Below are positions 1-60,325 of a DNA stretch of 64,000 nucleotides, in pieces. The notes beneath the pieces are model-generated. The model was not told the origin of the DNA. It saw only the letters and a list, made by a program, of their open reading frames with translations, and ran no database searches. Positions within the stretch are counted from its first letter, which is position 1. Each line of letters starts with the position of its first letter. Origin of the DNA: Snodgrassella alvi wkB2 (lineage in GTDB: Bacteria > Pseudomonadota > Gammaproteobacteria > Burkholderiales > Neisseriaceae); the NCBI RefSeq assembly GCF_000600005.1, contig NZ_CP007446.1, positions 2,196,894-2,260,893 of the forward strand, given 5' to 3'. The position numbers and the translations under genes were made by a program.

Positions 1-635
1 ATCTGCTGCGGGGCATTTTGTTCAATTGTTGCCGCCAGCAAATCATCAATACGGTTATCCTGTAGTTTGAATTTACCCAGTACCAGCTTATGTTTGAATT
101 CACATAAACCAATTACGGATTTAGGCGGAATAATCTGTACAAACTGATTATCAACAAACAGCGTACCAATTTGCTCATCGGTAAAATAATGCAGTTTGAT
201 GTGATCGATACCTTCAATTAATCTGCCGGTATTTTTTGCCTGAATAATTTCCATAGCAACTTCATCAGACAACCGGTACCCTTGCTCCAAAGTTACTTTT
301 TTAATTGCCTGTTCCTTATAACTCTTCCAGTACAATGCTTTAGTAGAGGGTTGAATAATCTCTACCAGCATTTCTTCTTCATAACGCAGCACAATCTCAT
401 CATCAGCCACATTGACATAATGACAATATTTTTCTACCAGCTGCGGATAAAAATTGAGCAGTTTTTCGGCAATAGCCGATTCAATCTTAGTATCAGCTAA
501 ATCCACCAGATAATGAGTAATGTTGACAAAAGGATCCCAGAAAATATGCTGGCCTGCGGTAATGATAGTATTAATTTCACCGCGTTTAGTGACAACGGCC
601 AGCTCACCTTTTTTCACATTAATTATATTCAACAT
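1..635 (-). CDS. SPFH/slipin-family protein (partial, runs off left edge)
   Basis: An open frame of 211 codons starts at ATG 635-633 and stays open to the window edge, so the 3' end is missing. The predicted N-terminus reads MLNIINVKKGELAVVTKRGE, followed by hydrophobic and beta-rich segments ending in a GLCEFKHKLVLGKFKLQDNR-like stretch. This resembles the SPFH (stomatin/prohibitin/flotillin) domain as seen in slipins; no clear N-terminal membrane helix is visible. An AGGAGA-like ribosome site lies just upstream. It is the first protein gene behind the sigma-54 promoter and tRNA-like gene at 909-1144 and is divergent from rtcR. Slipin genes are known in some RtcR/RtcB RNA-repair operons, so I infer it belongs to such an operon with rtcB expected to the left. 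The family call rests on my reading of the translation, not a database search. Confidence 0.7.
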   Translation of the reverse strand, partial: MLNIINVKKGELAVVTKRGEINTIITAGQHIFWDPFVNITHYLVDLADTKIESAIAEKLLNFYPQLVEKYCHYVNVADDEIVLRYEEEMLVEIIQPSTKALYWKSYKEQAIKKVTLEQGYRLSDEVAMEIIQAKNTGRLIEGIDHIKLHYFTDEQIGTLFVDNQFVQIIPPKSVIGLCEFKHKLVLGKFKLQDNRIDDLLAATIEQNAPQQ

Positions 636-908
636 ATTAAATCTCCTTTTTTGGCAGCCAGCAAAGAGAAGAGACACAATCAAACGGATTAAGTAACGAA
701 ATAACAGGGGAAAACTGATATCTTTAAACATTCAACTAACTGCTTATGGCTCATCAATTTTTTGCCTGCTATCCGGTTTTTTTACCCGGACAGAATCATT
801 AATCCGTTTATTCTGTGCGGTTAACCGGTTTTTTCGTGCCTTAGCTTTACTGCTTTGCTTATTTCCCTTTACTGGCTGGTATTGCTCAAACAACAAATTA
901 CTACAATA
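636..908. other. spacer between slipin gene and tRNA-like gene
   Basis: About 270 bases that should be transcribed leftward with the slipin gene. A Lys/Arg-rich minus-strand frame ending at 744 is open but has no convincing start or ribosome site. I see no clear terminator, which fits read-through from the tRNA-like gene into the slipin gene. Confidence 0.4.
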
Positions 909-983
909 TGGCTTTTGAAACAGGAGTCGAACCCGTGACAGATTGGTTTGGTACCAATTGCTCTACCTCTGAGCTATTCAAAA
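909..983 (-). tRNA. tRNA-like gene, anticodon CCA, non-canonical A33
   Basis: The minus strand folds into a complete cloverleaf. The 7-bp acceptor is TTTTGAA/TTCAAAA, then U8-A9, D stem GCTC/GAGC with loop AGAGGTA, anticodon stem ATTGG/CCAAT with loop TACCAAA, variable CTGTC, T stem ACGGG/CCTGT with loop TTCGACT, discriminator G73 and an encoded CCA end. The anticodon is CCA (Trp-type). Position 33, almost always U in working tRNAs, is A, and the first acceptor pair is U1:A72 with four A:U pairs in a row. It lies between rtcR and the slipin gene, downstream of a sigma-54-type promoter. It is therefore probably not a normal translational tRNA but an RNA made with the RNA-repair operon (sensor, decoy or sacrificial substrate; inference). 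Alternative: a degenerate tRNA-Trp, or a relative of the tRNA-mimicking module of bacterial Y RNAs. Confidence 0.72.
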
Positions 984-1034
984 ATTTTCCGGGGGAAGGA
1001 AATGTCTTTCATACCAGGGAATACATGTTGATAA

Positions 1035-1076
1035 TGCGAATAAATCAGTCTTTCGATTAATTTAATTCCATTCGCA
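1035..1076 (-). other. hairpin in leader of RtcR-dependent transcript
   Basis: An inverted repeat with TGCGAAT and ATTCGCA arms (7 bp) encloses a second, imperfect A/U-rich stem closed by a GAAA loop when read on the minus strand. It lies between the predicted sigma-54 start (about 1115) and the tRNA-like gene. It could be an RNA-processing or protein-binding element; function unknown. Confidence 0.45.
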
Positions 1077-1125
1077 ATGTACCCTGCTGCCGTAAAAACA
1101 GTATGTATTTCAGACAATATCCTTA

Positions 1126-1144
1126 TTGCAATTACCGTACCAAG
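1126..1144 (-). promoter_or_regulatory. sigma-54 (-24/-12) promoter for tRNA-like/slipin operon
   Basis: Reading leftward the sequence is CTTGGTACGGTAATTGCAA. It has the invariant GG and GC dinucleotides with 10 bases between them and matches the TTGGCAC-N5-TTGCA consensus except for one base in the -24 element. Transcription would start near 1115 and run through the leader hairpin, the tRNA-like gene and the slipin gene. The divergent neighbour is a sigma-54 activator, which makes this an RtcR target by context. The AT-rich stretch 1145-1302 would hold the activator sites. Confidence 0.75.
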
Positions 1145-1302: not shown

Positions 1303-2934
1303 ATGGACAAGAAAAATATTGTATTCGGTTTTTTAGGCAATGTACTTGACCAGCGAGGCAAAGGAAGAAAACGTTGGACACGCTGGCGCCCTACTATTGA
1401 TATCTGTAATCATCCGGAATGGCCGGTTTATCGCCTGGAACTGATTTATCACACTCAGGACAGCAAACTACTCGAAGACATTATTCAGGATATTAAAACC
1501 ATTGCCCCGGATACACAGGTGAACCCGATTCCAGTTCAGATACAGGATCCATGGGATTTTGAAGAGGTGTATACCTGTTTACTGGATATTGCCAAAAACT
1601 ATACTTTTAATAATGAGCAAGAAAATTATTATCTGAATATTACCACCGGTACCCATGTAATGCAGATCTGCTGGTTCTTACTGGCAGAATCACGCTTTTA
1701 TCCTGCTAGACTGTTACAACCCTCGCCGCCGGCCAAACCGTTAGCATCGCCGGAAAACCTTGCCGCAGAACCTATAGCAAATCAGCCACTGTACCCCAGC
1801 GGACAAATAAACATCATTGACCTGAATCTGAACCGTTACGATCAGATTCTGACTCGCTTCCAGCAATATGCTAATCAAGCAACAGAACTGCTCAAATCAG
1901 GTATAGCGACAAAAAACCGGCATTACAATCAACTAATCAACGAAATAGAACAGGTTGCCAGCCGCTCTCATGCGCCTATTTTGCTATGCGGCCCCACTGG
2001 TGCCGGTAAATCTTTTCTTGCCCGGCAAATTTACCGGCTTAAACTGAACCAGCATCAGATTACCGGACAATTCGTAGAAATTAACTGCGCTACCCTGAGT
2101 AGCGATAATGCCATGTCTACACTGTTCGGTCACATCAAAGGTGCTTATACTGGTGCCAGTCTGGGCAGAAACGGCTTACTCAGACAGGCGGATAACGGCG
2201 TTCTGTTTCTGGATGAAATCGGAGAACTGGGGCTGGATGAACAGGCTATTCTCTTAAAGGCGATTGAGGAAAAACAATTTTATCCGCTAGGTGCAGACAA
2301 ACTGGTATCCAGTAACTTTCAGCTGATTGCCGGAACCAACAAAGATTTAAAACAGGCAATTATCCGCGGTACTTTTAGAGAGGATTTATACGCACGTATC
2401 AATTTATGGAGTTACCAGCTACCGGGACTTGCCGAACGTAAAGAAGATATCGAACCGAATATTGATTTTGAGCTGGCACGATTTGCGCAGGAGTACGGTA
2501 CCATGCCGCGTTTTAATCAGCAATCCAGAGACCGTTATATTCAGTTTGCCACATCGGCTATGGCAACATGGCCGGGTAATTTCCGTGAGCTCACTGCTTC
2601 CATTACCCGTATGGCTACTTTATCCATACAAGGAAACATCACTCTGGAACAAGTTGAAAATGAAATCCGGCGTTTACAGATACACTGGCAGCAGGTAACT
2701 CTTTCTGATGCGCTGATTCCGGCTGAAATTGATGAATTTGACCGGTATCAGCTGGAAAAAGTCATTGAAGTATGCCGGAAAAGCCGAACTCTATCCGAAG
2801 CCGGCCGGTATTTGTTTGCTGTATCCAGAGCACAAAAACAGCGCGCCAATGATGCAGACAGGCTGAAAAAATATCTGGCCAAATTTGATTTAAGCTGGGA
2901 GCAGATAAAAGACAGCATCAGTAAAGGCAATTAA
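1303..2934 (+). CDS. rtcR: RNA repair transcriptional activator RtcR (sigma-54 dependent)
   Basis: A 543-aa bacterial enhancer-binding protein. Residues about 1-190 form the RtcR N-terminal domain of the CARF/Rossmann type, with an LNITTGTHVMQ motif near 111-121. The AAA+ domain has Walker A GPTGAGKS (230-237), the sigma-54 contact loop GAYTGA (280-285) and Walker B LFLDEI (301-306). The C-terminal part carries a helix-turn-helix-like segment. In this family the N-domain senses RNA ends and relieves inhibition, and the ATPase then opens sigma-54 promoters of RNA-repair genes. It is divergent from the sigma-54 promoter at 1126-1144, so that unit is its likely target. No clear Shine-Dalgarno precedes the ATG; the upstream region is extremely AT-rich with a TATAAT at 1265-1270. 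Confidence 0.93.
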   Translation: MDKKNIVFGFLGNVLDQRGKGRKRWTRWRPTIDICNHPEWPVYRLELIYHTQDSKLLEDIIQDIKTIAPDTQVNPIPVQIQDPWDFEEVYTCLLDIAKNYTFNNEQENYYLNITTGTHVMQICWFLLAESRFYPARLLQPSPPAKPLASPENLAAEPIANQPLYPSGQINIIDLNLNRYDQILTRFQQYANQATELLKSGIATKNRHYNQLINEIEQVASRSHAPILLCGPTGAGKSFLARQIYRLKLNQHQITGQFVEINCATLSSDNAMSTLFGHIKGAYTGASLGRNGLLRQADNGVLFLDEIGELGLDEQAILLKAIEEKQFYPLGADKLVSSNFQLIAGTNKDLKQAIIRGTFREDLYARINLWSYQLPGLAERKEDIEPNIDFELARFAQEYGTMPRFNQQSRDRYIQFATSAMATWPGNFRELTASITRMATLSIQGNITLEQVENEIRRLQIHWQQVTLSDALIPAEIDEFDRYQLEKVIEVCRKSRTLSEAGRYLFAVSRAQKQRANDADRLKKYLAKFDLSWEQIKDSISKGN

Positions 2935-60103: not shown

Positions 60104-60325
60104 CGGCAAGATAAAGACGTTACGTTCAATAGCGTAACCAGCTTTGACAGGCTGAACAAAGAGGCAGACTTTTTGCTACTTACCAAAAAAGTAGCGTTGG
60201 TCTGTAAAAACCCATTGCCACCGCTTTTTTTCATGGTGGACAGTGGCAGGGAGGCTTTACGCCTACCGGTATACTCTTTGTCGGTCTGTCAACCCTGCCA
60301 TTTGTCTGCCGCCATCTGTGTTTAA
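60104..60325 (+). pseudogene. phage-type Ash/Icd-like leader remnant (uncertain)
   Basis: A 73-codon open frame without a start includes VTSFDRLNKEADFLLLTKK and NPLPPLFFMVDSGREALRLP and ends at TAA 60325. The +1-shifted frame also reads a Cys/Trp-rich peptide (CHRFFSWWTVAGRLYAYRYT) that reminds me of P4-like phage Ash/Icd-type leader sequences. The DNA has several inverted repeats (GCTACTT/AAGTAGC; GGCAGGG/CCCTGCC enclosing AGGC/GCCT), so it may instead be a structured RNA. The call is from memory only. Confidence 0.3.

Follow-up and report, generated by a model that had tools for sequence, protein, structure and literature searches.

A conserved, predicted non-decoding tRNA-like domain in the structured leader RNA of slipin–rtcB operons, hinting at an RNA component of RNA repair

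An RNA-repair locus of Snodgrassella alvi and its tRNA-like element

The left end of the window—the 64,000-nucleotide stretch of Snodgrassella alvi wkB2 DNA analysed here—holds a locus with the layout of an RtcR-type repair operon, in which rtcR is divergent, a sigma-54 site is present and rtcB lies on the opposite strand. Reading away from the sigma-54 site that diverges from rtcR, a tRNA-like element is followed by a slipin gene (a 556-aa frame with a Band_7 domain) that runs past the left edge of the window and then, on the same strand, by rtcB (410 aa, PF01139); no rtcA was seen in a 12-kb stretch (L004) around the locus. Transcription is expected to start near position 1115, which would give a leader of about 480 nt ahead of slipin, whose start codon is at 635. 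The features are, from left to right:

1..635 (-): slipin (SPFH/Band_7) gene, 5' part, with its start codon at 635 (MLNIINV...); extends left past the window, where rtcB follows (Band_7 match)
655..878 (-): 3' leader domain, a long branched hairpin closed by CCAGCCAG.../...CUGGCUG (predicted fold, 8 sequences)
909..983 (-): tRNA-like domain with UACCAAA loop, G73 and encoded CCA, 5' end at 983 (ARAGORN; Rfam tRNA; model R1, 74.4 bits, L028:1104-1175)
988..1001 (-): short hairpin in the spacer between domain 1 and the tRNA-like (RNAalifold on genus sequences; single-sequence fold)
1003..1116 (-): 5' leader domain 1, a predicted junction of closing helix, short hairpin and long arm with a two-base bulge (RNAalifold, 8 genus sequences)
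1127..1143 (-): sigma-54-type promoter TTGGTACGGTAATTGCA (read from the sequence; motif also in 8/8 genus loci)
1303..2934 (+): rtcR, divergent, a sigma-54 activator with an RtcR (CARF-type) domain (PF06956, E 4.2e-69; PF00158)

The slipin of this genus measures about 525–556 aa (here, window 1-635 and L004:6955-8625 on the minus strand), against 378–380 aa in relatives, and its extra N-terminal stretch looks as if the N-terminal part of these shorter proteins had been repeated.

ARAGORN reads the element at 909-983 (-) as tRNA-Trp(cca), and it matches the Rfam tRNA family (RF00005) with 55.2 bits (E 3.8e-9). The acceptor is a full 7-bp helix (UUUUGAA/UUCAAAA) that begins with four U:A pairs; core and elbow carry U8, A14, G18-G19, C48 and the T loop UUCGACU, and in strain wkB2 both G73 and an encoded CCA are present. 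However, the anticodon loop is UACCAAA, with A at position 33 in place of the U33 of translating tRNAs. Among the 59 full matches that the Rfam tRNA model has across the genome, re-read with ARAGORN as a control set, U33 was found in 58, the sole A33 being that of the window element; a separate tRNA-Trp gene elsewhere in the genome has the loop CUCCAAA. ARAGORN, Rfam and the sequence itself therefore confirm the tRNA fold, elbow letters, 3' end and A33 loop that an earlier note had described for this DNA, together with the place behind a sigma-54 promoter facing rtcR. The note had also counted on a further rtc gene to the left of the window, where rtcB does lie, and had missed the predicted RNA folds on both sides of the element (about 1003-1116 and 655-878).

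Of 14 genus genomes, 8 have RtcR, and the tRNA-like and the sigma-54 promoter accompany it in all eight loci. The anticodon stem (AUUGG/CCAAU) is constant across these loci; the loop above it differs in five of seven columns (UACCAAA twice, CACCAAA three times, and CACCUAA, AACUGAU and ACCAGAU once each) and has U33 in none (0/8). The bases 3' of the acceptor vary as well, with CCA encoded in some members only. Because both loop and 3' end vary, no tRNA identity is, as far as these sequences tell, kept up within the genus. Recognition by tryptophanyl-tRNA synthetase, which the earlier note had hinted at, is rejected on the variable anticodon triplet and 3' end. A33 itself is likewise rejected as a conserved trait, loops varying in genus and family alike; the part of that expectation that stands is the lack of U33 within the genus, since more widely U33 occurs in 31 of 76 tRNA-likes. 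Compared with a canonical tRNA (RF00005), then, the element has the same fold and elbow and, in this strain, the CCA anticodon letters, G73 and CCA end of a tRNA-Trp, but it differs in having no U33 in the genus and an unconserved anticodon, acceptor end and CCA in the tRNA-like family.

Association with slipin and loss of decoding features

A wider survey drew on 67 RtcR loci, a part of the RtcR matches from family, order and class searches from which the weak L079 and L080 were left out, and on model R1, built from 47 tRNA-likes and used with a presence cut-off of 40 bits. A slipin homologue occurs in 20 of the 67 loci. R1 scored at least 40 bits in 20/20 loci with slipin and in 0/47 without (Fisher p 1.7e-17). 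Of the positive loci, four are rows of the model itself and two more come from genomes already among its rows. The best score among the 47 slipin-less loci was 33 bits, in Y-RNA-type loci, and ARAGORN by itself finds the tRNA-like in 15 of the 20 slipin-type loci. A slipin-profile scan of the genome collection, of which the best 80 loci were kept (mainly Burkholderiales and Pseudomonas, partly overlapping the 67), started from the other side: an R1 tRNA-like lies 100–900 nt upstream of slipin in 76 of these best 80 loci—274 nt upstream in P. aeruginosa PA7 (L099)—so that its conservation extends well past one strain. A sigma-54-like site was found in 62 of the 76, in 60 of them 144–225 nt before the tRNA-like; the two outlying sites, 441 and 463 nt away, may have arisen by chance. 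Where several tRNA-likes stand in tandem, they abut with zero spacer. Upstream of slipin in L071, a class-level relative, ARAGORN reports three in a row (2310-2524; anticodons aga, a 6-nt loop, and agt).

Four of the best 80 slipin loci have no tRNA-like: three Pseudomonas loci (L101, L102 and L167) have hairpins in its absence, and a Burkholderia locus (L121) keeps the T arm with the D arm absent. As all four retain the junction domain described below, the tRNA-like is apparently dispensable in some lineages.

A divergent rtcR accompanies 63 of the best 80 slipin loci and is absent from the flanking DNA examined in the other 17, which spanned the full 4 kb upstream in eight and less in nine. 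The tRNA-like is kept in 17/17, including those eight. Since it persists where an adjacent rtcR is missing, the tRNA-like follows slipin and not the RtcR promoter in its distribution, and the suggestion that it generates a ligand for RtcR is weakened by the eight loci with full upstream sequence. The rtcR-less operons have company of their own. An HNH endonuclease gene lies upstream of the leader in 12 of the 17 (PF14279/PF01844 in L114), and two to six further tRNA matches on the same strand precede it in 10, eight of which also have the HNH gene; among the 63 rtcR-bearing loci, three have such tRNA matches and none has the HNH gene. Ordinary tRNA genes stand in a row with the HNH gene in L108, L112, L114, L119, L125, L146, L152 and L161, and without it in L124 and L151, the rows comprising Asp, Arg, Pro, His, Glu, Phe, Trp and others.

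Across the family, sequence comparison shows the tRNA elbow and the pairing stems to be kept and the features for decoding and charging to be mostly lost. In the 47 aligned sequences, 92.6% of stem cells are paired; shuffles reach 75.3%, and slid partners no more than 43.8%. The D stem is invariant (47/47), the T arm nearly so, and anticodon and T stems covary, the anticodon stem with 97.9% of its cells paired and double changes in 5/5 pairs. The outer acceptor, by comparison, has decayed by 3 bp, and pair 1:72 forms in 24 of 76 tRNA-likes. Loops of 7 nt occur in 42 of the 76, 31 of these with U33, and some look canonical (e.g., CUGAUAA); the other 34 differ in length and include GCAA, GAAA, CGAAAG, CGCAAG and UUCG caps, many of them GNRA or UUCG. 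CCA directly follows position 73 in 2/76, against 34/44 among other tRNA matches farther upstream in the same loci. A 7-nt U33 loop, six or more acceptor pairs and CCA within one base are combined in 2/76 tRNA-likes and 29/44 of these controls, a figure that understates the control because weakly aligned matches are included. Decoding by the tRNA-like is thus disfavoured, and the earlier proposal of a non-translating tRNA mimic in an RtcR/sigma-54-type operon gains support.

A larger structured leader RNA

The tRNA-like appears to be one domain of a longer folded RNA. RNAalifold on the eight genus sequences places 41 pairs in domain 1, seven with compensatory change and with a covariation term of about zero; a single-sequence fold of 984-1110 has a z-score of -2.3 and does not form the short hairpin of this domain. 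For the 3' domain, 82 pairs are predicted, eight with compensatory change, and the domain ends about 20 nt upstream of the slipin start codon in the genus. The fold of 646-908 has a z-score of -5.38, none of 200 shuffles being equally stable, and the stretch from tRNA-like to slipin in 26 of the 76 related loci has a median z of -3.45 (range -0.9 to -11.4).

In relatives, inspection by eye places a T-arm minihelix upstream of the tRNA-like, its position being taken in several Pseudomonas by a second tRNA-like, and upstream of this again lies a three-way junction domain (GGUGC...GYAUGCCGC) with 27 predicted pairs, 20 of them with compensatory change in 36 sequences. Model R2, which represents this junction domain, has matches in 11 of the 20 slipin-type RtcR loci, at E 0.0013 or lower in eight and at E 0.02–0.05 in three; it has none in the eight genus loci, L071 or the 47 slipin-less RtcR loci. 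It also matches 25 of 26 further slipin loci, two of them weakly, including all four that lack a tRNA-like; L146 was missed. In 300 genomes of the order, strict filters left 11 R2 matches with E < 1e-3, all directly before slipin, and five weaker ones whose flanks hold no slipin. R2 has no match in the window's own leader, whose predicted topology is similar and whose long arm likewise carries a two-base bulge in the prediction; a shared origin of this leader and those of the relatives seems likely.

The flanking domains are covered by no Rfam family at gathering score, one of the searches having extended to E 0.05, matches to mascRNA, tmRNA fragments and plastid UTRs in the leaders being below it, and RNAalifold on an unanchored alignment of 39 leaders recovered the arms in part only. 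A motif GCARYRCC lies 3' of the tRNA-like in 36 of 76 loci, in 27 of them at 20–29 nt, compared with 107 of 760 shuffles, and is suggestive only; in these 36 related loci, the helix that closes the 3' domain is weakly longer than in shuffles (mean 7.56 vs 6.84 bp).

Possible roles of the leader RNA

YrlA (RF02553), encoded in rsr-yrlBA-rtcBA operons, likewise mimics a tRNA elbow without decoding and is found next to a scaffold protein and rtcB under RtcR control. It differs in length (about 114 nt), in its arm order, the T arm preceding the D arm, and in its association with Rsr, whereas the window RNA has the normal tRNA arm order, is internal to a longer leader and comes with slipin. RF02553 matches nothing in the window at gathering score, nor anything over 600-1320 at E up to 5; some relatives have weak sub-gathering matches of 29–32 bits. 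The rsr gene (TROVE) was found in 0/14 genus genomes; 13 of 16 other RtcR-bearing genomes of the family have TROVE matches, most of which score close to the cut-off or barely above it, and YrlA-type RNAs follow a sigma-54 site in four of those loci. In L008, L014, L019 and L020, loci of Rsr-bearing relatives, at least two tandem YrlA-type RNAs lie between rtcR and the next gene. As a predicted elbow mimic without decoding in a repair operon, the tRNA-like is comparable with YrlA but not one of its kind, and slipin and the tRNA-like seem to occupy the place of Rsr and YrlA elsewhere.

For this reason, we tentatively prefer to see the tRNA-like as a domain of a structured leader RNA of the slipin–rtcB RNA-repair operon that serves as partner RNA of the slipin/RtcB module. 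Damaged tRNA, to which the Salmonella RtcR operon responds according to passages of PMC7790460, would activate RtcR and cause the leader to be transcribed ahead of slipin and rtcB. The transcribed leader would then fold and act as partner RNA, its elbow mimic docking on a protein that recognises tRNA elbows, and such docking could help to join broken tRNAs and ligase at a slipin membrane scaffold. Its mode of working would resemble that of the Y RNA of Rsr (Ro60-type) operons, yet it would not itself be a Y RNA. Several points speak against a partner RNA: the RNA always lies directly before slipin, which fits a cis-acting leader equally well; 31 of 76 loops are of 7 nt with U33; 4 of 80 loci do without the tRNA-like; R2 misses the window leader; and the fold of domain 1 is weakly supported. 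A more far-reaching version, which we consider rather unlikely, is a new class of large structured RNA, composed of a junction, one to three internal tRNA-likes and a long branched 3' domain, in a membrane-anchored slipin/RtcB repair RNP that would be an independent counterpart of Ro60 and Y RNA.

A cis-acting leader is doubtful taken by itself and nearly as likely as the partner RNA. Here, the 5' RNA would control translation, processing or stability of the slipin–rtcB message, with the tRNA-like as a sensor or processing site (e.g., for RNase P, RNase Z, a tRNA-modifying enzyme or RtcB). The constant position before slipin, the 3' domain ending so close to the start codon and the retention of the RNA where the promoter differs all agree with such control. 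However, tandem tRNA-likes that abut without a spacer argue against it, and sequestration of the Shine-Dalgarno sequence by the leader is unsupported: the mean unpaired probability, with start sites approximate, is 0.69 at slipin (80 loci) and 0.575 at rtcB (49 loci).

A decoy that blocks a tRNA-breaking nuclease or toxin, through its elbow or, where a lineage has 7-nt loops, as anticodon bait, is improbable. Hughes et al. proposed such a competitive inhibitor for Salmonella YrlA, whose tRNA-like domain is uncut by the nuclease according to passages of PMC7790460, and the variable loop on a constant stem in the genus would suit it; that variation equally fits an absence of constraint, however, and since 34 of 76 members have no 7-nt loop and many are capped by tetraloops, anticodon bait—another proposal of the earlier note—is disfavoured as the general role. 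A spare or special tRNA, charged and translating while other tRNAs are cut, is very unlikely: ordinary tRNA genes often stand upstream in rtcR-less operons and some loops look canonical, but the anticodon triplet is unconserved, the outer acceptor has decayed, CCA is rare after position 73 and the genus has no U33. Hardly credible is a functionless, degenerating tRNA relic, for although loops and acceptor ends have drifted and three Pseudomonas loci have lost the tRNA-like, the D stem is invariant, the other stems covary and the element is tied to slipin operons.

Repair operons induced by damaged tRNAs are already known. A tRNA mimic paired with slipin would be a second, apparently independent system bearing on the role of extra RNAs and proteins in these operons, with elbow mimic, scaffold protein and ligase built from parts other than Rsr and YrlA. 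Such RNAs are easily overlooked because ARAGORN labels them ordinary tRNAs. Should slipin bind the tRNA mimic, this SPFH protein would gain an RNA partner and a biochemical handle.

No earlier description of a leader RNA with a tRNA-like domain was found in the open-access literature searched, where 'slipin' and 'tRNA-like' co-occur in no paper (mention outside it is possible) and 'RtcR' with 'slipin' leads to the Anabaena TrcR paper alone. According to passages of PMC10272220, the genes co-regulated under translation stress in the TrcR regulon are rtcB, a slipin gene, HNH endonuclease genes and an operon of 26 tRNA genes, a set that the rtcR-less slipin–rtcB operons with HNH and tRNA genes resemble; the regulon differs in that TrcR is a repressor, the genes are dispersed and the accessible text reports no tRNA mimic. 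PaFlo8 of P. aeruginosa is similarly a slipin-type SPFH gene inside an rtcR/rtcB/rtcA locus, but it is described as a protein only, 'tRNA' being absent from the accessible text of PMC13086221. In the same species, passages of PMC1250226 give a 3.2-fold rise of PA4582 with H2O2 on microarrays, and an isolate comparison (PMC8743555) counts a tRNA gene, PA4581.1, with those whose expression rose most; from descriptions of the rtc locus and the order of the tags, PA4582 is probably the slipin gene and PA4581.1 this tRNA-like.

Elsewhere in the wkB2 genome, a second RtcB-family gene lies at C1:2411710-2412741 (-), a 383-aa frame matched by two Pfam pieces (L002, L003). Near the right end of the window, a phage-type C4 antisense RNA (RF01695, 56.3 bits) at 60229-60316 (+) suggests prophage DNA there.
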